A DNA stretch of 59,336 nt from the NCBI GenBank assembly GCA_035995165.1, contig DASYKU010000020.1:1-59336 (forward strand), read 5' to 3'. The DNA is from Mycobacteriales bacterium (GTDB lineage Bacteria > Actinomycetota > Actinomycetes > Mycobacteriales > CADCTP01). Below are positions 12,815 through 50,572 of this stretch, one piece after another. Within the stretch, counting starts at the first letter, position 1. The number at the start of each line of letters is the position of its first letter. A program made the translations under genes and the position numbers. The notes under the pieces were generated by a model. The model was not told the DNA's origin. It ran no database searches and worked only from the letters and a program-made list of their open reading frames with translations.

Positions 12815-15800
12815 CGGTTCCGCCCGCCCCGGTCCGCGCGATCGGCCCGGAGCACGCCGACGAGGAGAAGAAGCAGACCGAGCGCCGCCAGCCGTCCGGG
12901 CCAGGGGTCGCCGAGCACGATCGTGGCCGTGATCCGGCCGCCGGTGTCGGGCCGGAGGACGAGCCAGACCACTGGCACCGCGAGCAGGACCACGACCGCG
13001 GCGGCGATCAGCGACTGCGGCCGGGCCGGCCGGACCAGCTGCCAGAACGCCAGCAGCAGCGCCGGGACTGCCAGCCAGATCCCGCCCACGGCCCATGCCA
13101 GCAGCACTGCTCCGGCCCATAGTGCGAGTGATCGCCACCGGGCCCATCGGGCGCTGCGGGGCCGGCCCCAGGAGCCCGGCCTCCACCGCGACCGGCCGCG
13201 CGCCTCCGCGGTCTCCGCCTCGCGGCCGGGCACGGGCACCCCGCCGCCACCGGAGCCCGGAGGACCGACCGGGCGCAACGCGACGAGTAGTGCGCTGCCC
13301 AGCGCCACCACCCCCGACCCGACGACCGCGGCGTCGGTCGCGGTCTGCCCGGTGTACCGCACCGAGATCGCGTGGTCGCCCGGGGCGTCCACCCGCCAGC
13401 CGGCGGAATATCCGTCCAGCGCGATCGGCGGTCCCAGATCATGACCGTCCAGGGTGGCCCGCCAGTGCGGGTCCAGGGCCTGCCCGGTGACGAGGAAGTA
13501 CGGCTGGGTCGCACCGCTGACGTGCGCGGTGAACCGCGGTCCCCGGCCCTCGGAGACCTGGACCGCAGGGCCGGCGGGGGCCGGCGCGGCCGCGCCGAGC
13601 GGATCGCGCAGCACCAGCTCGTCCGCGGTCCAGCCCGGCACCGGCAGGAGCCGGTGCTGACCCGCGCTGACCGGCAACCGGCCGCAGCCGACCCATCGCA
13701 CCGGGTCGGCGGACAGGATCGGGTGCGGCGGCCGCATCAGCACCGGCGTGCCGTCGAGGGTGGCGACCGGAACGCAGGCCCGTGCCGACCGGCCGCCGGA
13801 GAACGGCATGCTCGCTCCACCGAAGCCGACCTCCGCGATGCGCACGGCACCGGCCGGGTTGCCGGTCAGCGTGGCCAGCACGGTGACCCGCACCCGGGAG
13901 GCGACCTGGGCCGGCACCGGGATCCGCGTCGTCCGCGGACCCAGGTCGGCCACGATCTGAGGACCACCGTCCAGGCTGATCCCGACCCGGGTGATCCGGT
14001 CGAGCGACTCGGGACGCCCCGGCCCGGTCAGCGTCAGGCTGACCGAATTGACCCGGCGGGCCGGCGCGCTGATCGTCAGCGACTGGCCGACGACCGGACC
14101 GGCCGGCGCCCAGGCCGTGTCGGTGCGACCGTCGACCGCCTGCGAGGCCCGGACGGTGGGCAACCCGAAGGCGCGCGAGCTCGAAGTCGCCCGCACCGGG
14201 CCGTAGGCACCGGCGAGCACGTCCAGGTCCCGCTCGGACAGCTGCGGGCCGACCCGGATGGTTCCGGAGAGCCGGTAGTCCCGCGCCACCGGGGCGGCGA
14301 TGTCCCGGCTCAGCCCGGTCTCCTCGTCGTCGGCGGCCGGCGTGGTCCCGCGGACCCGGGTCAGGACCATGTCGATCGGCGTCCGGTCCAGCGCCGCCCG
14401 TCCGGCCGGGTCCAGGCCCGCGACAAGGCCGTCCATCGTTCGCGGCGTCCGGGCCACCCGCGTGAGCTGGACGCCGGGGATCTGCACCTCTTGCACGCCG
14501 ACCAGGTTGAAGCCGGTCCCGGTCACCCCGAGCACGGTGATCTTGACCGAGTCCGCGATCGTGCGCCGAGGCAACGTCAGCTCGGCCGCGCCGGATGCAT
14601 CGACTGCACGATCCGCACTGACCCCGCCGACCTCGATGCGGACCTTCGCTATCCGCTGGGCGTCGGCCGTCCGAACCCGGACGGTCACCTTCGGCACCAG
14701 CCGGCTCTGGTCGAAGTGGACCGAGAGGGACTGGCCGACGGCCCGGCCGAAGTCGCCGAACAGCCAGCCGGTGTCCGGGTCGCCGTCCACCGCGTTCTCC
14801 GGCGCGCCGGAGGCGACCGGACCGAACACCGAGCCGACGTCGGTCGCGGTGACCGAGCCGCCGGCGACCTCCAAGACGGTCTGCCGGTCCGGGTCGAACA
14901 ACGTACGGGTGCCGCCCGGGTCCGTGTCGGCCGGCAGCAGCGGACCCTGGCTGCCGCCGAGCCGGCCGGCCGCGGTGCTGCGCCGCCGGTTGGTGTCGGT
15001 CAGCACCACCCGTCCGACCTCGCCGCGATCCAGCATCGCGGCCAGGTCGCCACTGCTCAGATCGCCCAAGTAGCGGAACGGGCGGGTCCCGTTCAGCAGC
15101 CCGGCTCCCGCCAGCGGGGCGACGGCGAACCCGTCGCCGTCGACGAGCACGGTCCCCGCGGCGGCTTCGGTACGCACCACCGGTTGGGGCCCGGCGACCG
15201 CGTAGTGCTGCAGCGGCGGCAGCGAGGCCTCGGCGAAGGACAACGAGGGGTAGGTCGGGGACACCGTGTTCTCGCCCGGCGCTCCGTAGTTCCCGCGCGG
15301 CACCAGCCCTCGGTCGGCATTGACCTGGCCCTGCAGGACCTCCGGGCGGGCGCCGCCGACGTCCTCCCAGACCGTGTCGTTGCGTACGAGCAGGTCGCGG
15401 ACCCCGAGGTAGCGGGCGGTGGCCGACAACGCCCCCGGCGGCAGCGAGCCCTCCTGCAACTGCACGTCGGTGGCCGCGAGCAGGTTCGCGGCCTCTGGGG
15501 TGGTGACGGGGATGACCGTGCGCAGCAGGGCAGGACGGGACAGCACCGACGGGGCCAGGTCGTCCGGCCGCGACTGCGACCAGCGGTACTGGGAGAGCAC
15601 CTCCCCGGGGACGAACCAGACCCGCTGGTCGGAGGGCCCGCGGTCGAGGTCGGCCGCGGCCGACTTCCAGTAGTCCGGCAGATCGACCGTGCTGGTGTAG
15701 AGACCGCCCGTCCAGGCCGGCACCGTCGCACCGGCCAGCACCACGGTCAGGGCCAGGACCACGAGGGTGCGCCGCTCCGGGTCGCGCCATCGACGCAGCG

Positions 15801-17073
15801 CCGCCGCCGTGCCGGCGGCGAGCAGCAGCGCCGTGCCCAGCACCAGCAGAGAACCGATCTTGTTGGTGGTACGGAATGCGCCAGCGCCCGGAACGGTGTC
15901 GAAGGTCCAGCGCAGCGCGCGGCCGAACGCGGTCGGCGCGGCCGGCGGGTGCACCCCGACCATGACCGGCACCGCGACCACGACGAGCAGCAGGCCGAGC
16001 CTGCGTACGGTGCCGCGAGCCAGCAGAGCCGCGGCCGCTCCCAGCGCCGGCAGGGCGAAGCTGAGCAGCACCACGACCGGGTCGTTGAGATAGCCGGTCC
16101 ACTGCGGCACCCAGGCGCCGTCCGGGCCGGAGCCGTAGAGCGGCCAGAGGCCGAGCCCCCGCAGCACCTCGGCCGCGGACGACGGGCCGGAGATCCCCTC
16201 CAGCGTCTCGGAGTTCTGCACGACCACGGCCCCGGCGTGCAGCGCCAGCACCGACGGGACGACCCAGTACGCCGACAGCGCCGCCACGAGCACCGCGCAC
16301 CGGCCCAGCACCGCGAGCACCGGTCGCCAGGACAGCCCGTCCGCGCGCCGGACCACCAGCGCGACCACCGGCACCGCGACCAACTGCAACAGCGGCACGA
16401 CGCCGGCGTTCATCCCGCTCGCGGCGGCGAACGCCAGCGCGAACGCGGCCGGCCAGCGCCAGCGCGCTGCCCGGGCCCGCCAGCCCCGCCCCGGTATCGG
16501 CGACCGCAGCGCGCGGACGAGGAACACCAGCTGCCAGGGCAACACGGCCCAGGGCAGCAGGATGGCCTGGGTGCCGCCGGCCACCACCACGTAGGGGTTG
16601 GCCACGAACGTCGTCCCGGCGACCAGCGGGCCGGCCGCCTCCGCGTCGGGCTCGACGGTGTCCGCGACCGGCCGCAACGCCCGGTAGAGCCGGGCCGCGC
16701 CCCAGGCCCCGACCACGACGAGCAGGAACCGCAGCACCCGTACGGACAGGGCGGGCGAGATCCCGACCGACTGGATCAGTCCGATCGCGACGGCGACCGG
16801 GACCAGGCCCACGTTGAAGCTGGGGAAGCCGAGCTGCGGATTCTCCTGCCAGGCCGACAGGTACGCCGCAGCGGTGCGCCAGGGCGCGAAGTAGAGCTCC
16901 GGCTTGGCGTCCGCGGCGAACGACCCGGCGCTGCTGCCGAAGGTCACGGCGATCAGCAGCAGCCACAACCCGGCCGCGACGTACACCGGCCAGCCGACGC
17001 GACGACGCGGACGGGCCCCTGGCTCGTCGCCGCCCGCCGCGGCGGCCCGGTCGGCCATGTCCACCGCGCTCAC
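12811..17073 (-). CDS. Second AftD-like (DUF3367) GT-C arabinosyltransferase paralog
   Basis: A giant protein of 1420 residues with the AftD plan: an N-terminal GT-C membrane region (first outer loop with FAADAKPELYFAPW), a long extracytoplasmic part with repeated discoidin-like modules (around GAPENAVDGDPDTGWLFGD and RASQAVDGRTDTAWAPAGP), and two or more C-terminal helices. It is clearly a paralog of the AftD protein at 1885-6030 but diverged, with a different first loop. It heads an operon with GT2, GT4 and a membrane protein, and is divergent from a flippase across 200 bp. It probably transfers a lipid-linked pentose or other sugar outside the membrane; the exact sugar is inferred. Confidence 0.85.
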   Translation of the reverse strand: MSAVDMADRAAAAGGDEPGARPRRRVGWPVYVAAGLWLLLIAVTFGSSAGSFAADAKPELYFAPWRTAAAYLSAWQENPQLGFPSFNVGLVPVAVAIGLIQSVGISPALSVRVLRFLLVVVGAWGAARLYRALRPVADTVEPDAEAAGPLVAGTTFVANPYVVVAGGTQAILLPWAVLPWQLVFLVRALRSPIPGRGWRARAARWRWPAAFALAFAAASGMNAGVVPLLQLVAVPVVALVVRRADGLSWRPVLAVLGRCAVLVAALSAYWVVPSVLALHAGAVVVQNSETLEGISGPSSAAEVLRGLGLWPLYGSGPDGAWVPQWTGYLNDPVVVLLSFALPALGAAAALLARGTVRRLGLLLVVVAVPVMVGVHPPAAPTAFGRALRWTFDTVPGAGAFRTTNKIGSLLVLGTALLLAAGTAAALRRWRDPERRTLVVLALTVVLAGATVPAWTGGLYTSTVDLPDYWKSAAADLDRGPSDQRVWFVPGEVLSQYRWSQSRPDDLAPSVLSRPALLRTVIPVTTPEAANLLAATDVQLQEGSLPPGALSATARYLGVRDLLVRNDTVWEDVGGARPEVLQGQVNADRGLVPRGNYGAPGENTVSPTYPSLSFAEASLPPLQHYAVAGPQPVVRTEAAAGTVLVDGDGFAVAPLAGAGLLNGTRPFRYLGDLSSGDLAAMLDRGEVGRVVLTDTNRRRSTAAGRLGGSQGPLLPADTDPGGTRTLFDPDRQTVLEVAGGSVTATDVGSVFGPVASGAPENAVDGDPDTGWLFGDFGRAVGQSLSVHFDQSRLVPKVTVRVRTADAQRIAKVRIEVGGVSADRAVDASGAAELTLPRRTIADSVKITVLGVTGTGFNLVGVQEVQIPGVQLTRVARTPRTMDGLVAGLDPAGRAALDRTPIDMVLTRVRGTTPAADDEETGLSRDIAAPVARDYRLSGTIRVGPQLSERDLDVLAGAYGPVRATSSSRAFGLPTVRASQAVDGRTDTAWAPAGPVVGQSLTISAPARRVNSVSLTLTGPGRPESLDRITRVGISLDGGPQIVADLGPRTTRIPVPAQVASRVRVTVLATLTGNPAGAVRIAEVGFGGASMPFSGGRSARACVPVATLDGTPVLMRPPHPILSADPVRWVGCGRLPVSAGQHRLLPVPGWTADELVLRDPLGAAAPAPAGPAVQVSEGRGPRFTAHVSGATQPYFLVTGQALDPHWRATLDGHDLGPPIALDGYSAGWRVDAPGDHAISVRYTGQTATDAAVVGSGVVALGSALLVALRPVGPPGSGGGGVPVPGREAETAEARGRSRWRPGSWGRPRSARWARWRSLALWAGAVLLAWAVGGIWLAVPALLLAFWQLVRPARPQSLIAAAVVVLLAVPVVWLVLRPDTGGRITATIVLGDPWPGRLAALGLLLLLVGVLRADRADRGGRNR

Positions 17074-17275
17074 GACACCTCCGCCGGGCGCACCCGATCG
17101 CGGACCTCACGACAGGCCCTCTGGACTGGGCTCGGACAGCGTAGACGGGCGGCCGGATCCACGAGAGAGGCACCGTCCGGGCCGACTCCGTCCCGGAACG
17201 GGCGGACCGGGACGGAGCGGTCGGTAGCCTCGGCAGACGCCGACCCGACCGGGGCGGCGACGGACGGAGGTGCGG

Positions 17276-18688
17276 ATGGGTACCGGCCGCGCCGTCCGCC
17301 ACCGGTCCGGCGGCCTGACCAGCGGCGTGATCCTCGGCGTGGCCAGCGGGATCGCCACCGCGCTCGGCTACCTGTTCACCGCCGTCCTGGCCCGGTCGTT
17401 CACGGCCTCGGACTACGGCGCCCTGGTCGCGCTGCTCGGTGCCGGCTTGATCGGCACGATCCCCGCCGCCGGGTTCCAGTACGTGGTGGCCCGCCGTACG
17501 GTCGCGCTCGGCCTCCCGCCGGGTCGCAACGACGGGTCGTCGCTACGGCTGTCCGGCTTCGCCGGGATCGGCCTGCTGGCGATCGGGGCCGCGGTGACCG
17601 TGCCGGCCCGGTCCTGGCTGCACCTCGACGGAGCGCAGCCGATGCTCGCGCTGGCGGTGTCGCTCGTCCCGCTCACGCTGGCCGGCGCGTTCCAGGGCGC
17701 GCTGCTCGGGCACCGGCGGTTCGCCGCCCTCGGCGCGATGTACGTGGCCAGCGCGCTGACCCGGCTCGCTGCCGGGGTGGCCACCGCGCTGGCCGGCTGG
17801 GGCGTGACCGGCGCATTCTGGGCGCTGGCCGGCGCGGCGGTGTTGAGCACCGGCTTCGGCTGGCTGCTGACCGGGATGCGGTCCTGGGCTCCGGCCGGCA
17901 CCGGCACGGCGACGCTGGCCCGGGAGATCCTGCAGGCCTGCTCGACGGTGGCCGGCATCCTCGTGCTGACGAACACGGATGTCCTGCTGGCCCGGCACTA
18001 CCTCGACGCCGAGACCTCCGGGGCGTACGGCGTGGCCTCGCTGTTCGCAAAGGCGATGCTGTGGGGATCGCAGTTCGTCGTGCAGGCGGCGTACCCGGCG
18101 CTGGCCGCGATGCAGGGACGCCGCCGGCTGCTCGTACGCACGCTGGCCGCGACCGCCGGGCTCGGCCTGCTCGGCATCGCCGGCACGGCACTGGCCGGCC
18201 GCCCGCTGGTGCGGCTGGCCACGGGCAGCGGCTACGGCCTCGGGACGGGGACGCTGGTCGCGTTCGCGGTCCTCGGGGTCGTGTGGGCGCTGACGCAGGT
18301 GCTGCTGCTGGCCGCGGTGGCGGTCGGCGACCGCCGGCCGAGCCGGCTGCTGTGGGGGCTGATCGTGGCCGAGGCCGCGGTGGTCGCCGCGGGGCCGCAC
18401 AACTCCCCCGGCGAGATCCTGGCGGTCTGTACGGTCGGCGTCCTGCTGTTCGGCGGGCTGATCGCGGCGCTCGAGTGGTCCGCCCGCGGTGCCGGCCCGC
18501 CGGCACCGGTTCCGGTCTCAGCAGCCGACCCGACCCCGCCCGCCGCCCCGCTGTCCGCCGCCCCGTCCGACCACCCGGAGGAAGACGAGGGGAACGGGCC
18601 CGCCGCCACGGCGAGCGGGCCGGCGGTGGGCGGTGCGGCGGTGGCTCGGGGTGGGACGGCGGATCGACCCGAGCCGTCGTCCCGGTAG
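17276..18688 (+). CDS. Wzx-type polysaccharide flippase
   Basis: A polytopic protein of about 470 residues of the MOP/Wzx (polysaccharide biosynthesis) superfamily. It has about 12 hydrophobic helices, and its start (GVILGVASGIATALGYLFTA, then VLARSFTASDYGALVAL) is typical. The C-terminal 80 or so residues are a disordered Pro/Ala-rich cytoplasmic tail. It should move lipid-linked oligosaccharides across the membrane for the enzymes encoded beside it. The ATG at 17276 sits five bases after GGAGG; a GTG at 17270 is the alternative. It is divergent from the AftD paralog and followed by a methyltransferase gene. Confidence 0.88.
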   Translation: MGTGRAVRHRSGGLTSGVILGVASGIATALGYLFTAVLARSFTASDYGALVALLGAGLIGTIPAAGFQYVVARRTVALGLPPGRNDGSSLRLSGFAGIGLLAIGAAVTVPARSWLHLDGAQPMLALAVSLVPLTLAGAFQGALLGHRRFAALGAMYVASALTRLAAGVATALAGWGVTGAFWALAGAAVLSTGFGWLLTGMRSWAPAGTGTATLAREILQACSTVAGILVLTNTDVLLARHYLDAETSGAYGVASLFAKAMLWGSQFVVQAAYPALAAMQGRRRLLVRTLAATAGLGLLGIAGTALAGRPLVRLATGSGYGLGTGTLVAFAVLGVVWALTQVLLLAAVAVGDRRPSRLLWGLIVAEAAVVAAGPHNSPGEILAVCTVGVLLFGGLIAALEWSARGAGPPAPVPVSAADPTPPAAPLSAAPSDHPEEDEGNGPAATASGPAVGGAAVARGGTADRPEPSSR

Positions 18689-18699
18689 GGTCCGCCGCC

Positions 18700-19539
18700 G
18701 TGGACACCGCCGCGTTCGCCGCCCGGTTGCCGGCCTGCTTCGCGGCCGCCGATCTGTACGCGGACACGCCGCTCGATCGCCGCTTCGCCAAGGTCGTCGA
18801 GACCGTCGACGGGATGTCGACCGAGCACACGCTGACGCTGCTCAACCTGGCCGCGTCGATGCTGCCGGCCGGCGAGAGCTACCTGGAAGTGGGCTCGTAC
18901 CGGGGTCGTTCGGCGGTCGGTGCCGCGCTCGGCCACCCGGATGGGACGTTCACCGCGATCGAGAACTTCCGGGAGTTCGGGCTGGACCCGGCCGAGAGCG
19001 AGCGGTTGCTCCGGGCCGCACTGCGGGACTGGGACGTCGCCGAGCAGGTCCGGCTGCTGCCTGGCGATGCCTTCCGGCTGCTTCGCGGCGCGGTGCCCGG
19101 CCCGGCCGGCGTCTACTTCTACGACGGCGCGCACTCCCGGCTGGCCCAGCACCTCGGCCTCGGCCTGGCCGAGCCGGTGCTGGCCGACGAGGCCCTGGTC
19201 GTCGTCGACGACGCCTCCTGGCCTCAGGTCGAACGGTCCACGGCTCGCTACGTCGCCCGGCATCCCGGCTATCGCCTGCTGTTCGACCTGCGGGCCGAGC
19301 AGGCCGAGGACCCCCGCTGGTGCAACGGAGTCAAGGTGTACGCGTGGCATCGCCCCGCCGGCGCCCGAGGGCCACGCCTCGACCTGGCCTGGCGCCGGCT
19401 GGCGCACCTCTCCCTGCACGAACCGGCGCTCGCCGCGGCCTGGCGGGTGCTGCCCCGCTACCCACGACTGTCCGCCGCGCTCAAACGCGTCTACCTGCAC
19501 GGCGGGAGCGACGTCCCGCCCCCGGCCGAGAGGTGCTGA
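18700..19539 (+). CDS. Class I methyltransferase (Methyltransf_24 type), copy 1
   Basis: A 279-residue protein with the SAM-binding motif SYLEVGSYRGRSAVGAAL, the acidic TAIENFREFG after strand 2, VYFYDGAHSRLAQHL and the DEALVVVDDASWPQV segment seen in Methyltransf_24 proteins of glycan clusters. The GTG at 18700 is chosen because the paralog at 19541-20401 starts at the equivalent position with ATG (MDT..FAA). It starts 11 bases after the flippase stop. Its stop is one base away from the stop of the convergent paralog. A sugar O-methyltransferase role is inferred from context. Confidence 0.86.
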   Translation: MDTAAFAARLPACFAAADLYADTPLDRRFAKVVETVDGMSTEHTLTLLNLAASMLPAGESYLEVGSYRGRSAVGAALGHPDGTFTAIENFREFGLDPAESERLLRAALRDWDVAEQVRLLPGDAFRLLRGAVPGPAGVYFYDGAHSRLAQHLGLGLAEPVLADEALVVVDDASWPQVERSTARYVARHPGYRLLFDLRAEQAEDPRWCNGVKVYAWHRPAGARGPRLDLAWRRLAHLSLHEPALAAAWRVLPRYPRLSAALKRVYLHGGSDVPPPAERC

Positions 19540-19540
19540 T

Positions 19541-20401
19541 CTAGTCCGTCCCGCCGGGCCGCACCGGGTCCGGCTGCGCGACGGTCCGGGACCGCTTCGG
19601 CACCAGCCGGGTCGCCGCCGGCACCAGCCCGGGCCAGCGGTTCAGCGCGCGCCAGACCAGCGAGGTGGCCGGACCGCGGGCGTACACCTGCACCAGCCGC
19701 CGCCACCGCACGTCCACGCTCACGCGGCGCGGCGCCCCGGCGGGCCGTCGCCAGGCGAGCACGAGCAGGCCGTTCGCCCAGCGCGGGTCGTGGTCTCCCG
19801 CGGCCCGGATGTCCCGCAGCACGGTCCAGCCCGGGTGCCGGTCCAGGTAGCGGCGGGTCGCCGCCTCGACCATCGGGTACGACGAGTCGTCCACCAGCAC
19901 CAGGGCCTCGTCGGCCAGCAGCGGCTCGACCACGCCCAGAGCCAGGTAATGGGCCAGGCCGGTGTGCGCGCCGTCGTAGAAGTAGACCCCTACCGGCTCC
20001 GGCACCGCACCGGGCCGGGCCAGCACGGCGAAGCAGTCGCCGTCCCGCAGGACCAGCCGGTGCCCGGCGCCGTGCCGGGCCAGGTTGGCCAGCAGCTCGA
20101 CCCGGGACGCCTCGGCCAGCATGCCGAACTCGCGGAAGCTCTCCACCGCCACGTACGTACGATCCGGCGCGTCCAGCAGCGCCCCCGCCATCGACCGGCC
20201 CTTGAGCGTGCCGACCTCGAGGTACGCCTCCCCCGGCGGCAGCAGCCGGGCGGCCAGGTTGAGCGCCGCGAGCTCCGCCGCCGTGGAGTGCCCGGCGACC
20301 TCGGCCGTGATCGCGGTGAAGCGCGGGTCGGCCGGGACGCCGTCGGCCAGCGGGCCGTCGAACAGCCCGTCGAGGGCGGCCGCGAACGCCGAGGTGTCCA
20401 C
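19541..20401 (-). CDS. Class I methyltransferase (Methyltransf_24 type), copy 2
   Basis: A 286-residue paralog of the convergent gene. It has motif I AYLEVGTLKGRSMAGALL, the acidic VAVESFREFG, VYFYDGAHTGLAHYLALG and ADEALVLVDDSSYPMVE, all aligned with copy 1. It diverges mostly in the N-terminal 50 residues. The two genes lie tail to tail, so this looks like an old inverted duplication. It is divergent from the OafA-type acyltransferase across 57 bp. The substrate is probably a surface sugar. Confidence 0.86.
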   Translation of the reverse strand: MDTSAFAAALDGLFDGPLADGVPADPRFTAITAEVAGHSTAAELAALNLAARLLPPGEAYLEVGTLKGRSMAGALLDAPDRTYVAVESFREFGMLAEASRVELLANLARHGAGHRLVLRDGDCFAVLARPGAVPEPVGVYFYDGAHTGLAHYLALGVVEPLLADEALVLVDDSSYPMVEAATRRYLDRHPGWTVLRDIRAAGDHDPRWANGLLVLAWRRPAGAPRRVSVDVRWRRLVQVYARGPATSLVWRALNRWPGLVPAATRLVPKRSRTVAQPDPVRPGGTD

Positions 20402-20458
20402 TGCTGCTCCGTTTCGCAGGAGGAAAGGAGTCGGAGGCTAGCCCACTAAGCTGCCCGC

Positions 20459-22384
20459 GTGACGTCGGCGACGGGGCTGCGCTACCGGCCCGGGCTCGAC
20501 GGCATCCGGGCGGTCGCGGTGCTGGCCGTGCTGCTCTACCACGGTCAGGTCGGCTGGGCCCGCGGCGGATTCCTCGGCGTGGACGTGTTCTTCGTGCTCA
20601 GCGGCTACCTCATCACGGGGCTGTTGCTGACCGAGTGGCGGCGGTGGGGATCGATCGACCTGCGCCGGTTCTGGTTGCGGCGCGCCCGAAGGCTGCTGCC
20701 GGCGCTGTTCCTGCTCCTGACCGTGGTCTCGGTCGGCGCGGCGGCGCTGGCCTCGCCCGCGCAACGGGGGGCGCTGCGCGGCGACGCGCTCGCCACCCTC
20801 GGCTACGTCGCCAACTGGCGGTTCGTCCTGGCCGGCCGGTCCTACTTCGCGCAGTACGACGATCCGTCGCCGCTGCGGCACATGTGGTCGCTGGGCATCG
20901 AGGAGCAGTTCTATCTGCTCTACCCGCTGCTGCTGATCGGGCTGCTGAGCCTGGGCCTGCGCCGACGTGGGCTCGCCGCCGTACTCGGGCTCGGCGCGCT
21001 CGCGTCGGCCGGACTGGCCGCGCTGCTCTACCAGCCGGGCGCCGACCCGTCCCGGGTCTACTACGGCACCGACACCCGCCTGCAGGCGCTGCTGGTCGGC
21101 GCCGTCGCCGCCGTGCTGGCGGGCGAGGTGAGCACCCGCAACCGGCGTCCGGCGGCGTACGTGTCGATGGCCGGGCGGGAGGTCCCGCTGCCCGGTCGCG
21201 GGTCGAGCGGGCTGTTCGCGCTCGCCGGGCTGGGCGTCCTGCTGGTCGCGGCCCGGGACACCGCGGGCTGGCTCTATCAGGGCGGCTTCCTGCTCGTCGC
21301 CGCGCTGGCCGTGGTCGTCGTGCTGAGCGCGGCGGACGACCGGTCGACCACGGCCCGGCTGCTGTCCTGGGAGCCGCTGCGTCGCATCGGCCTGGTCTCC
21401 TATGGGCTCTACCTCTGGCACTGGCCGGTCTACGTCGTGCTCACCCCCGACCGGGTCGGCGCCCACGGCCCCGCGTTGCTGGTCCTCCGGCTCGCGGTCA
21501 CCGGACTGCTCGCCACCGCGTCGTACGTGCTGGTCGAACGGCCGGTCCGGGCCGGCGCGCTCGGCCGGCGCTGGCCCGCGCGGCGGCTGCGCCCGCTGAT
21601 CGCCGGCGTCCTGGTCGCCGTCGTCGCGGTCGTTCTCGGCGGTACCGCCGGGGCCGGGCCGCCCGCCGGGGCGCCGACCGCTCCGGCCGCGGCCCAGCAG
21701 CGCGGGTCGGACGACGTCGCCGCCTACCTGCTGGGTGACTCGGTGCCGTACAGCCTGCGGATCGGGTTCCGGCCCGAGACCGTGCCGGGGCTGTTCGTGG
21801 CCGGCAGTACCCAGCTCGGGTGCGGGTTGATCCCGGTGCCGCTGGCGGTGGACGGCCAGCCCAAGACGATCGACGCGCGATGCCGGCCGTGGGACGCCGC
21901 CTGGCCGGCCGACGTGACCGCGGTGAACCCGGACGTCGCCGTGCTCTTCCCCGGCATCGGCGAGCAGTTCGACCAGGTCGTGGGCGGCCGGATCGTCACG
22001 TTCGGCACTCCCGCGTACGAGCAGCACCTGGTCCGGGTGCTCGACTCCGACACCCGCCGGCTCGGCGTCGGCCGGCGGCCGGTCGCGCTGGTCACGGTCG
22101 GCTGCCACCAGGTGCCCGACAGCGGGCTCAGCCCCGACCCCGCGATCATCAACGACGAGTCCCGGGTGCGCTGGCTCAACGGGGTGCTGACCCGGTACGC
22201 CGCCCGCCAGGGCGGCCGGGTCACACTGCTGGACCTGCACGGCTTCCTCTGCGCCGACGGCTACGCCGCGACCCGCGACGGTGTCACGCTGCGCTCGGAC
22301 GGCCTGCACTTCAGCGGGGCCGGAGCGGCCGTGGTCTGGCGCTGGCTGGGCCCGCAGCTGATCCAGCTGGCCGGCCGGAACTAG
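20459..22384 (+). CDS. OafA/YrhL-type acyltransferase with C-terminal SGNH domain
   Basis: A 641-residue protein. The membrane half (to about residue 390) has the acyltransferase 3 hallmarks RPGLDGIRAVAVLAVLLYH, GVDVFFVLSGYLITG, RRARRLLPAL and MWSLGIEEQFYLLYPLLL. The extracytoplasmic C-terminal half is an SGNH hydrolase-like domain with the block I motif AYLLGDSVPYSL and the block V motif DGLHFSGAGA. Such fusions O-acetylate surface polysaccharides, the membrane part bringing the acetyl group across and the SGNH part transferring it. The start is GTG at 20459. It differs from the acyltransferase at 1093, which has no SGNH domain. Confidence 0.92.
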   Translation: MTSATGLRYRPGLDGIRAVAVLAVLLYHGQVGWARGGFLGVDVFFVLSGYLITGLLLTEWRRWGSIDLRRFWLRRARRLLPALFLLLTVVSVGAAALASPAQRGALRGDALATLGYVANWRFVLAGRSYFAQYDDPSPLRHMWSLGIEEQFYLLYPLLLIGLLSLGLRRRGLAAVLGLGALASAGLAALLYQPGADPSRVYYGTDTRLQALLVGAVAAVLAGEVSTRNRRPAAYVSMAGREVPLPGRGSSGLFALAGLGVLLVAARDTAGWLYQGGFLLVAALAVVVVLSAADDRSTTARLLSWEPLRRIGLVSYGLYLWHWPVYVVLTPDRVGAHGPALLVLRLAVTGLLATASYVLVERPVRAGALGRRWPARRLRPLIAGVLVAVVAVVLGGTAGAGPPAGAPTAPAAAQQRGSDDVAAYLLGDSVPYSLRIGFRPETVPGLFVAGSTQLGCGLIPVPLAVDGQPKTIDARCRPWDAAWPADVTAVNPDVAVLFPGIGEQFDQVVGGRIVTFGTPAYEQHLVRVLDSDTRRLGVGRRPVALVTVGCHQVPDSGLSPDPAIINDESRVRWLNGVLTRYAARQGGRVTLLDLHGFLCADGYAATRDGVTLRSDGLHFSGAGAAVVWRWLGPQLIQLAGRN

Positions 22385-22456
22385 CCGCAACCGGCGGGCC
22401 GAGCGACTGCGACGAGTCGGACGGCCGGCCAGGTCGAGGCGGTCCGGCGGGACGCG

Positions 22457-22813
22457 CTAGTCCCGGTAGATCGGGGACTCGCCGTCGTCGCTGCGGGTCC
22501 GCTCCTCCCGCCGGGACGAGCCGAAGACGAGCAGGCCGCCGACCGCGACGATCACGGCACCGCCCGCCAGGAAGCCCGCGTCCAGCTGGCGGCGCTCGCT
22601 GAGCCGGCCGCAGACGTTCTTCTGGAACTGGTCGGTAGGCGGCCGCAGCCCTGACCCGCAGGCGAACACGGGTCCCTGCGGACTCTGGATGTCGATCGGC
22701 GCGACCATCCGGTACGCCGCCAGGACCAGCACCAGCAGTCCCAGCAGCAGGAAGGCACGCGCTCCGCGGGTGAGCACGAAGACCGTCCGGCCGACCGGCC
22801 GCTGATCCGACAT
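22457..22813 (-). CDS. Two-helix small membrane protein, unknown function
   Basis: A 118-residue protein with two membrane helices (about residues 19-38 and 79-99). The loop between them contains two cysteines (VFACGSGLRPPT and KNVCGRL), which could form a disulfide outside the cell. The C-terminus is polar and charged. The ATG at 22813 is preferred over the GTG at 22870 because the longer form would run into the leader of the divergent kinase gene. I do not recognise a named family. Confidence 0.7.
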   Translation of the reverse strand: MSDQRPVGRTVFVLTRGARAFLLLGLLVLVLAAYRMVAPIDIQSPQGPVFACGSGLRPPTDQFQKNVCGRLSERRQLDAGFLAGGAVIVAVGGLLVFGSSRREERTRSDDGESPIYRD

Positions 22814-22890
22814 GCGCGGGAGCCTACGACACCAGCCGGTAACGCCCGGACCGGGTCGGTAGGGTGCCATGTCCGGTGAGGAGGCCTGCC

Positions 22891-23895
22891 GTGGTGGTCA
22901 GAGCTCGAGCGCCGTTGCGGCTCAGCTTCGCGGGTGGCGGGACCGACGTGGCGCCGTTCCCGGAGACCGAGGGCGGCGTCGTCCTGTCCGCCACCATCAA
23001 CCGGTACGCGTACGGCTCGCTGACGCCCCGCCAGGACGCCCGGATCTCCGTGCACTCGCTCGACCTCGGCGTCTCGCTCGACTTCGACGCGCGCGACGAG
23101 CCGACGTTCGACGGCCGGCTGGACCTGGTCAAGGCGGCGGTCCGGCGGCTCGGCGGCGACACGGCCGGCTTCGACCTGCTGCTGCAGTCCAACGCGCCGC
23201 CCGGGTCCGGGCTGGGCTCGTCCTCGACGATGCTCGTCGCGCTGGTCGGCCTGCTGCGCGAGCACCACCGGCTGCCGCTGACCGACTACGAGGTGGCCGA
23301 TCTCGCGTACCAGGCCGAGCGGGTCGACCTCCGGATCCGCGGCGGGCACCAGGACCACTACGCGGCCACGTTCGGCGGCTTCAACTTCATCGAGTTCGGC
23401 GAGCGGGTGATCGTCAACCCGCTGCGGGTGCGGGACGCGGTCGTCGACGAGCTCCAGCTGAACCTGCTGCTCTGCTACACCGGCACCACCCGGCAGTCCT
23501 CGAAGATCATCGAGGACCAGAGCGCGCGGCTGGCCGGCGGCGAGCTCGAGACGCTGGAGGGACTGCGGGCGCAGAAGGAGCTCGCGGTCGCGATGAAATC
23601 GGCGCTGCTGCGGGGTGAGCTGCCCGAGTTCGGCTCGCTGCTGGGCGAGGCCTGGAAGCAGAAGAAGCGGATGTCGCCGCTCATCGCCACCGACTTCATC
23701 GAGGAGGCGTACGACGTGGCGATGCGGGCCGGCGCGCTCGGCGGCAAGGTCACCGGGGCCGGGGGCGGCGGTTACATCCTCTTCTACTGCGACTTCGCCA
23801 GGAAGCACCGGCTGGCGGCGGCGCTGACCCGGATGGGTGGCGTCGTCACCGACTTCGCGTTCGAGCCCAAGGGGCTGACCACCTGGCGCGCGTGA
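22891..23895 (+). CDS. GHMP kinase, D-glycero-D-manno-heptose-7-phosphate kinase-like
   Basis: A sugar kinase of about 334 residues in the GHMP superfamily. The N-terminal RAPLRLSFAGGGTDVAPF is typical of HddA-type heptose-7-phosphate 1-kinases. The ATP loop is PPGSGLGSSSTMLVAL, and the C-terminal GHMP motif is GGKVTGAGGGGYILFYC. It should phosphorylate the anomeric carbon of a sugar 7-phosphate on the way to a GDP-activated sugar. The GTG at 22891 is chosen because AGGAGG lies six bases upstream; a longer GTG start at 22864 lacks a good ribosome site. No partner epimerase, isomerase or nucleotidyltransferase is in the window. Fucokinase-like activity is an alternative. Confidence 0.85.
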   Translation: MVVRARAPLRLSFAGGGTDVAPFPETEGGVVLSATINRYAYGSLTPRQDARISVHSLDLGVSLDFDARDEPTFDGRLDLVKAAVRRLGGDTAGFDLLLQSNAPPGSGLGSSSTMLVALVGLLREHHRLPLTDYEVADLAYQAERVDLRIRGGHQDHYAATFGGFNFIEFGERVIVNPLRVRDAVVDELQLNLLLCYTGTTRQSSKIIEDQSARLAGGELETLEGLRAQKELAVAMKSALLRGELPEFGSLLGEAWKQKKRMSPLIATDFIEEAYDVAMRAGALGGKVTGAGGGGYILFYCDFARKHRLAAALTRMGGVVTDFAFEPKGLTTWRA

Positions 23896-23973
23896 GCCGC
23901 CCCGTCATCCCACGCCGGTAAGCCCGTCCGTGATACCAAGTGCGCGCGGCCGTCGATCCCGGGAGAATTCGCT

Positions 23974-25221
23974 CTGACCACCACCACCTCACCGCTGCCC
24001 GGCGCGCCGGTCGAGCGGACGGCGACCTCGGGCGGCATCGCCGCTGCGGTCGGCACCACCGCGGCCAACGTCCTGTCGTACGGGTTGAGCCTGGCCGGGG
24101 CCCGGCTGCTCGTGCCGTCCGAGTACGGCGTGCTGGTCGCGTTGCTCGCGGTCACCCTGGTCGCCTCCGTGCCCGCGCTGGCGCTGCAAGCGGTGGTCGC
24201 GGTCCGGGTCGTCCGGGCGCCGGTGGCCGACCGCGGCCGGGTGGTGGCCGAGTCGCTGGGCCTCGGGCTCGCCGCCGGGGCCGCGATGGTCCTGGTCGGG
24301 CTGGCCGCCACGCCGGTGCTGGACCGGTTCCTCGCCCTCGGCGGACCCGGGCCGACGATCTGGGTCGCGATCGCGGTCGGCGCGACCACCGTGCTCGCGG
24401 TGCCGCAGGGCGTCGCCCAGGGCCGGCAGGACTTCCACCGGCTCGCGCTGATCCTGGTCGTGTACGCGGCGGTCCGGCTGGTCGGTGGGCTCGCCGGGCT
24501 GATCCTCTTCGACTCCGTGACCGGCGCGCTGGCCGGGGTGGCCGCCGGGGTGGCGGCGTCGCTCGTCGTCGCCTGGGTGCTGACCGGGCGGCCGCGGCCG
24601 GCCCGCGGCGGCTGGCGGGTACGGGAGCTGCTGGTCGCCGGGCAGGCGCTGGCCGGGCTCTACCTGCTGACCAACCTCGACCCGGTGCTGGCGCGGCACT
24701 ATCTGCCCGCGGCCGAGGCCGGGCTGTACGGCGCGGGCGCGGTGCTGGCCAAGGCCGCGTTCTTCCTGCCGCAGGCGGTCGTGCTGGTGCTGTTCCCGCG
24801 GCTGGCGTCGGCGCCCCGGCCGGGCCGGACGCTCTGGGCCGGGCTGGCCGCGCTGGCCGGGCTCGGGCTGCTGATGACGGTGGTGACGCGGCTGGCCGGC
24901 GGGCTCGCGGTCACCGCGGTCGGCGGCGACGCGTACCGGGAGCTGGCCGGGCCGGCCTGGTTGTTCGTGGCGGTCGGGTCGGCGCTCGGCGTGGTCCAGT
25001 TGCTGCTCTACGCGCAGCTCACCGCGGCCCGGGCGACCGCGACGATCGCGGTCTGGGCCGTGGTCGCGGTCGAAGCGGTCGTGGTCGCGACGATCTCGCA
25101 CGGCAGCCTGGTCGAGGTCGTCAGTGCCGCGCTCGGGACCGCGCTCGTCGCGGCCGTGCTCGGCCTCGCCTGGACCGCCCGCTCCCACCGCCCGACCCCC
25201 ACCCCCACCCCCGCCGCCTGA
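23974..25221 (+). CDS. Second Wzx-type flippase, probable CTG start
   Basis: A polytopic MOP-superfamily flippase of about 415 residues. The first helix (GGIAAAVGTTAANVLSYGLS) and SLAGARLLVPSEYGVLVALL are typical. The frame is open back to the stop of the kinase gene at 23895, but it has no ATG, GTG or TTG until a TTG at 24085 that would cut the first helix in half. A CTG at 23974, eight bases after GGGAG, gives a full N-terminus, so this start is proposed. If TTG 24085 is used the protein has 378 residues. It lies 78 bp after the kinase gene on the same strand. Confidence 0.82.
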   Translation: MTTTTSPLPGAPVERTATSGGIAAAVGTTAANVLSYGLSLAGARLLVPSEYGVLVALLAVTLVASVPALALQAVVAVRVVRAPVADRGRVVAESLGLGLAAGAAMVLVGLAATPVLDRFLALGGPGPTIWVAIAVGATTVLAVPQGVAQGRQDFHRLALILVVYAAVRLVGGLAGLILFDSVTGALAGVAAGVAASLVVAWVLTGRPRPARGGWRVRELLVAGQALAGLYLLTNLDPVLARHYLPAAEAGLYGAGAVLAKAAFFLPQAVVLVLFPRLASAPRPGRTLWAGLAALAGLGLLMTVVTRLAGGLAVTAVGGDAYRELAGPAWLFVAVGSALGVVQLLLYAQLTAARATATIAVWAVVAVEAVVVATISHGSLVEVVSAALGTALVAAVLGLAWTARSHRPTPTPTPAA

Positions 25222-25280
25222 CCACCGCCAGACGCGGGCGCGCGCCCCGCGCCCGCGCGCCGAAGGCCCACGGGCCGGGC

Positions 25281-25349
25281 GGGCCGAGGGCGTGGGCCGG
25301 GCCGGGCCGAGGGCGTGGGCCGGGCCGGGCCGAGGGCGTGGGCCGGGCC
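25281..25349. repeat. Three perfect 23-bp tandem repeats
   Basis: Three identical 23-bp units run at 25281-25303, 25304-25326 and 25327-25349 in the 331-bp gap between the flippase and the convergent hydrolase gene. They are made almost wholly of G and C. Open frames cross them on both strands but show no protein-like features. Confidence 0.93.
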
Positions 25350-25365
25350 GGGCCGGGGTCGACGG

Positions 25366-25533
25366 CCCGTGGGCCGACTGCCCGGGGGCCGTGGCCCGTG
25401 GTCGTCGCCCGTGGTCGACGCCCGTGGTCGACGCCCGTGGTCGACGGCCCGGGGGTCGACTGCCCGGGGGTCGACTGCCCGGGCGGACCGCCCGGGCCGA
25501 CCGCCCGGGGCCGACTGCCCGGGGGGCGGGGGC
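25366..25533. repeat. Degenerate 13-15-bp tandem array
   Basis: About a dozen units of 13-15 bases, each beginning CCCG and most ending in (T/C)CGAC(T/C)G, follow the 23-bp repeats with few other bases between. Units at 25408, 25421 and 25434 are identical over 13 bases; those at 25448 and 25463 are identical over 15. Later units turn into CCCGGG variants. The array ends about 20 bases before the hydrolase stop codon. Confidence 0.85.
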
Positions 25534-25552
25534 CGACGAGCCGGCGGGCGCG

Positions 25553-49587: not shown

Positions 49588-49591
<4 letters not shown>
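48455..49591 (-). CDS. coxE: VWA-domain protein, CoxE type
   Basis: A 378-residue protein. The C-terminal von Willebrand A domain has the MIDAS motif DVSGSMSG (Asp206, Ser208, Ser210) and a later VVVILSDGWERDD. The N-terminal half is the helical region typical of CoxE. CoxE works with the MoxR-type ATPase CoxD to mature the molybdenum-copper or molybdenum active site. ATG at 49591 overlaps the ATPase stop (ATGA); the longer frame upstream is antiparallel junk inside the ATPase gene. Confidence 0.93.
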
Positions 49592-50499
<908 letters not shown>

Positions 50500-50572
50500 T
50501 CGCCCTCCCGTACCCCAGGTTTCCTGGTCGTCCCGCCGGTCAGCCGGCTCGTTGATCCCTGTCCATAGTGCG

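Follow-up and report, generated by a model that had tools for sequence, protein, structure and literature searches.

A putative polysaccharide flippase gene of a Mycobacteriales bacterium that probably starts at a weak CTG codon

Initiation at CTG is rare in bacteria, as the sequence-only reading of the locus described here had stated. In the parts of the published surveys on which we draw, CUG makes up 0.024% of bacterial initiation codons and gives 0.86% of the output of AUG (PMC11497404), and changes to CUG among closely related genomes amount to 2 of 61,358 ancestral AUG, 1 of 5,080 GUG and 1 of 2,468 UUG codons (PMC5622118). Rare or flexible start codons are used by fewer than 0.3% of the core genes of Listeria, according to the excerpted report (PMC13068326). 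For mycobacteria, the portion of the leadered selection study cited here gives CTG at 0.03%, not enriched, as against 28.7% for TTG, and describes CTG as poor in leaderless initiation (PMC4633059), while CTG enrichment is absent from the Ribo-RET results of Mycobacterium tuberculosis in the extract of that paper (PMC9094748). Precedents nevertheless exist. To express the gentamicin gene genQ, a version with a CTG start was amplified, as the relevant section reports (PMC4039129), and in the polyprenyl synthetase gene of Mycolicibacterium smegmatis a CTG lies upstream of the annotated canonical start, as is the case here (PMC9597629, in extract). The M. smegmatis start is backed by N-terminal peptides, whereas the one that we describe is backed by computation.

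The window, by which we mean the whole stretch of 59,336 nucleotides that was analysed, contains a reading frame that stays open between the TGA at 23893, which ends the upstream kinase gene as well, and a stop codon ending at position 25221 (Table 1). This TGA, CTG 23974 and TTG 24085 all lie in the same frame. It had been claimed that the frame holds no ATG, GTG or TTG from the stop codon to TTG 24085 and that CTG 23974 lies eight bases after GGGAG, and the sequence bears out both statements; the sole other canonical codons of the stretch, GTG 23930 and GTG 23940, are in the other two frames. The further claim, that the flippase needs a CTG start, is supported by conservation, predicted structure, coding signal and initiation context, and we conclude, with a probability of roughly 0.7, that the gene starts at a genuine but weak CTG at 23974. 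The CTG-started protein would have the N-terminus fMet-TTTTSPLP, and the N-terminal peptide expected from it is TTTTSPLPGAPVER. Taking the published frequency of 0.024% and about 5,000 genes, estimated from the 5.37 Mb of the host assembly, about one CTG-started gene is expected per genome, and the flippase CTG fits this expected rarity; it is unusual but has precedents, a rare yet known kind of start.

Table 1. Coordinates of the features discussed, in positions of the window
Feature	Coordinates	Strand	Basis or remark
Related flippase gene of the same cluster	17276..18688	+	35% identical, E 7.1e-34
GHMP kinase gene, HddA-like, start uncertain	22864..23895	+	TGA 23893-23895, 78 nt before CTG
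Weakly structured initiation region	23944..23991	+	MFE -5.6 kcal/mol, z +2.17
GGGAG, Shine-Dalgarno-like	23961..23965	+	Sequence; 8 nt spacer (23966-23973) to CTG
Putative Wzx-type MOP flippase gene	23974..25221	+	Open frame read from CTG 23974, 415 aa
CTG, proposed start codon	23974..23976	+	Initiation-context score
Codons of predicted helix 1, residues 13-45	24010..24108	+	Model; holds conserved Asn32 and Tyr36
TTG, residue 38, first canonical in-frame start	24085..24087	+	Rejected as start

The coding signal of the flippase sets in at about CTG 23974. The 26 codons before it have a GC3 of 0.73 and codon log-odds of -2.5, and the 37 codons from it onward a GC3 of 0.95 and log-odds of +15.0; read in the other two frames, the same 37 codons give -32.6 and -11.7. 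The proposal that 60 codons upstream of the TTG encode a first flippase helix therefore stands in part: about 25 codons of helix 1 do precede TTG 24085, but the stretch comprises 63 codons and these are not all coding-like. The signal ahead of the TTG exceeds what chance would give. In 459 kb of the host genome (the window and 20 further stretches), the first canonical start lies 12 or more codons downstream of the best coding start in six of the 361 genes called by codon usage. The flippase gene is the strongest of the six, with log-odds of 15.3 over 50 codons, and is followed by a gene with 8.9 over 28; four of the flagged genes, those besides the flippase gene and a CoxD-like AAA gene (49588-50556, minus strand), have signals of 0.5 to 8.9. 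The CoxD-like gene was considered as a second case in the window and rejected, as its apparent start, TTG 50499, has a good Shine-Dalgarno-like stretch. It adjoins genes for a CO dehydrogenase flavoprotein and a CoxE-like protein.

The flippase matches the Pfam family Polysacc_synt_3 (PF13440) at 1.1e-5, its 25.2 bits lying just above the cut-off of 23; no NCBIfam family was found at 0.001, and a profile search of PDB sequences returned nothing at 0.01. An AlphaFold2 model built from 51 aligned sequences has a mean pLDDT of 92.9 and a pTM of 0.90, and its best solved matches in Foldseek are structures of WzxE (PDB 9g9p and 9g9n, TM 0.75 and 0.77), followed by MATE proteins and MurJ, with a probability of 1.00. 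The predicted fold is that of the MOP superfamily over the full length of the chain. It is shared with the lipid III flippase WzxE from end to end, but the identity of the two proteins is 16%, and the lipid III substrate is that of WzxE. The gene is thus a putative one for a Wzx-type flippase of lipid-linked sugars, belonging to what appears to be a cell-surface polysaccharide cluster.

In the model, helix 1 spans residues 13-45, so that a start at TTG 24085, codon 38, would drop 25 of its 33 residues. Two of these, Asn32 and Tyr36, are encoded before the TTG, and in an alignment of 50 homologs with the CTG-started protein they are kept in 46 and 49 sequences, respectively (47 and 50 of 51 with the window protein counted; 49 again on a repeat count for Tyr36). 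Comparison with homologs had been proposed as a check on the start, and the two conserved residues place it before the TTG. Judging from this alignment and the predicted helix, translation must begin upstream of TTG 24085.

The context of initiation was assessed with a simple start score that combines Shine-Dalgarno energy, local RNA structure and upstream GC and has a cross-validated AUC of 0.81. The positives were 54 genes with a single canonical start near the onset of the coding signal (33 ATG, 20 GTG and 1 TTG), and the negatives 1,500 in-frame internal CTGs sampled from 8,192. As its power is modest and the Shine-Dalgarno energies rest on an assumed 16S tail, the score ranks candidates and is no proof of initiation. 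CTG 23974 scores 2.64, a value reached by 0.13% of internal CTGs and by 11% of the 54 unambiguous starts, and comes top of the seven in-frame codons scored, above ATC 23956, CTG 23995, GTC 24010, ATC 24037, CTG 24073 and TTG 24085. Both a Shine-Dalgarno duplex and low structure are found there: the duplex has an energy of -7.4 kcal/mol (medians -6.2 for the unambiguous starts and -4.4 for internal CTGs), and all 200 shuffles of the RNA surrounding the codon fold at least equally well, so this region is unusually open. Residue 2 would be Thr, as it is in 18 of the 54 unambiguous starts. At 23700-24300, nothing resembling a promoter or a terminator was found. ATT, which works as a start codon in mycobacteria according to the part of the study cited (PMC4633059), occurs at 23967 and was rejected because it is out of frame.

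The CTG start is so far known only here, since a canonical start is available at all homologous loci of two sets. In the first, derived from genome searches, one of which matched 48 genomes and gave loci for its best 30 matches, all 53 loci have such a codon after the upstream stop codon and ahead of the position of Tyr36, 50 of 50 as judged from the alignment and 3 of 3 from pairwise matches; four partial matches (L033, L034, L036 and L037) and a weak one (L038) were left out. In the second, from a contig search, ATG, GTG or TTG is available in all 80 loci, those confirmed and kept out of 266, with the starts placed by offset and gaps ignored. The two counts are not additive, because at least 11 loci are common to both sets, and they concern the availability of a canonical start, with no statement on which one is used. 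The proteins in both sets are some 30-44% identical to the window flippase; no homolog above about 44% was found among the matches listed, and the named homologs listed are all from Actinomycetota. In each of the 23 Amycolatopsis loci fetched, a TTG preceded by GGAG or GGGAG occupies roughly the equivalent position, and 6 of these loci have no other canonical start, which indicates that weak starts recur in the flippase family. These homologs differ from the gene described here in that TTG is a standard start and in that the protein identity is only about 40%.

The uniform availability of canonical starts speaks for the best placed of the alternatives, that the start position is right and the base wrong, a sequencing or assembly error hiding a canonical codon. 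A single base difference would suffice, and the host assembly is a draft of 162 contigs. Against this, the error would need to hit exactly CTG 23974, and most draft assemblies contain few errors of a single base. Moreover, with about one CTG-started gene expected per 5,000 or so genes at the excerpted frequency (PMC11497404), an error is unnecessary, and we consider one unlikely. One contig scan, from which the host's own genome was perhaps excluded, turned up no close relative carrying a canonical codon there, and no second strain was found. Neither the flippase nor the kinase has a match in G001, the one genome of the same genus that was searched. In G001, contig C106 begins next to the counterpart of the gene downstream of the flippase, the first match, at base 35, corresponding to about position 25540 of the window, and the acyltransferase has a candidate counterpart in a 455-bp, 70% match near the start of contig C459; no other match of G001 to window 15000-25250 was found at 1e-20. 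As contig ends surround the locus, a gap in the assembly could be hiding a G001 flippase. Dense GC-rich tandem repeats occupy 25271-25550, just past the flippase stop codon, with a 23-bp unit (98% matches, 3.7 copies) followed by units of 13 and 56 bp; they may break assemblies, since C106 begins about there.

The flippase is encoded among polysaccharide genes, with an HddA-like GHMP kinase, an acyltransferase, an AftD-like arabinofuranosyltransferase and two group 1 glycosyltransferases within 17 kb. The best NCBIfam model for the kinase is the HddA kinase, at 300.9 bits and under the curated cut-off of 600. A second HddA-like GHMP kinase gene of the same genome (contig C124, 51079-52080; L171) encodes a protein 85% identical to the window kinase. 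The idea that the window flippase travels with this copy was rejected, as the DNA match ends at the end of the kinase; at a distance of about 9 kb, C124 also carries a stronger match to Polysacc_synt_3. The related flippase in the window has both GTG 17270 and ATG 17276 available as starts and, by itself, matches no Pfam family at 0.001. Two neighbouring convergent frames of the window, 18673-19539 (plus strand) and 19541-20401 (minus strand), both match Methyltransf_24 with an E-value of 1.6e-8 and are possibly an inverted duplicate.

The presence of this related flippase in the same cluster bears on a second alternative, in which the CTG is no error but a recent start mutation that nearly silences the gene, its role being taken over by the flippase at 17276-18688 or by others. 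CTG is described as a very weak start in the parts of two studies cited here (PMC4633059, PMC11497404). However, no other damage is seen. The gene looks alive, because its frame is intact and it retains 25 of 29 strongly conserved positions (residues 121, 264, 332 and 350 differ), and these features favour a working gene, without power to date the codon change. A good, weakly structured start context has also been retained, yet a very recent event would look alike. We judge silencing to be improbable, a shade more so than an error in the base.

Translation might instead enter the frame elsewhere, at CTG 23995 or ATC 23956, by readthrough of the kinase TGA, or through a frameshift from GTG 23930 or GTG 23940. 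The kinase TGA does share the flippase frame, and the RNA is weakly folded at CTG 23995 and ATC 23956 as well. The Shine-Dalgarno energies of these two codons are poor, however (-0.9 and -2.4, respectively), and 10% and 5% of internal CTGs match or exceed them in the combined score; the linker does not resemble coding sequence, and neither do the other frames over the 37 codons described above. Entry by any of these routes is very improbable. A shorter flippase translated from TTG 24085 can be dismissed, for although this is the first canonical codon in frame, the product would lack most of helix 1, with Asn32 and Tyr36, and the score of the TTG, -2.03, is reached by 86% of internal CTGs and equalled or bettered by all 54 unambiguous starts (fraction 1.00).

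If the gene starts at CTG 23974, GGGAG would place the 30S subunit in the unusually weakly structured stretch, and the subunit would then initiate with fMet-tRNA on the CUG, probably with low efficiency. Initiation at this codon in the cell would be expected to give low output, and the CTG would have arisen in this lineage from ATG, GTG or TTG. Selection might keep it as a throttle on translation, a weak but well-placed start matching the amount of protein to the flux from kinase to flippase. That the flippase family tolerates or prefers weak starts, to judge from the TTG of the 23 Amycolatopsis loci, lends itself to this idea, which we nevertheless think is probably wrong.

Common gene finders accept only ATG, GTG and TTG as starts. 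Here they would begin the protein inside helix 1, leaving a flippase hardly able to fold. The general picture of initiation is unchanged, since the published frequency predicts about one CTG-started gene in each genome. Should the CTG be in use, a conserved membrane protein would join the few well-supported CTG starts of high-GC bacteria, and the case would show that conservation, coding signal and start context, taken together, can point to such starts.
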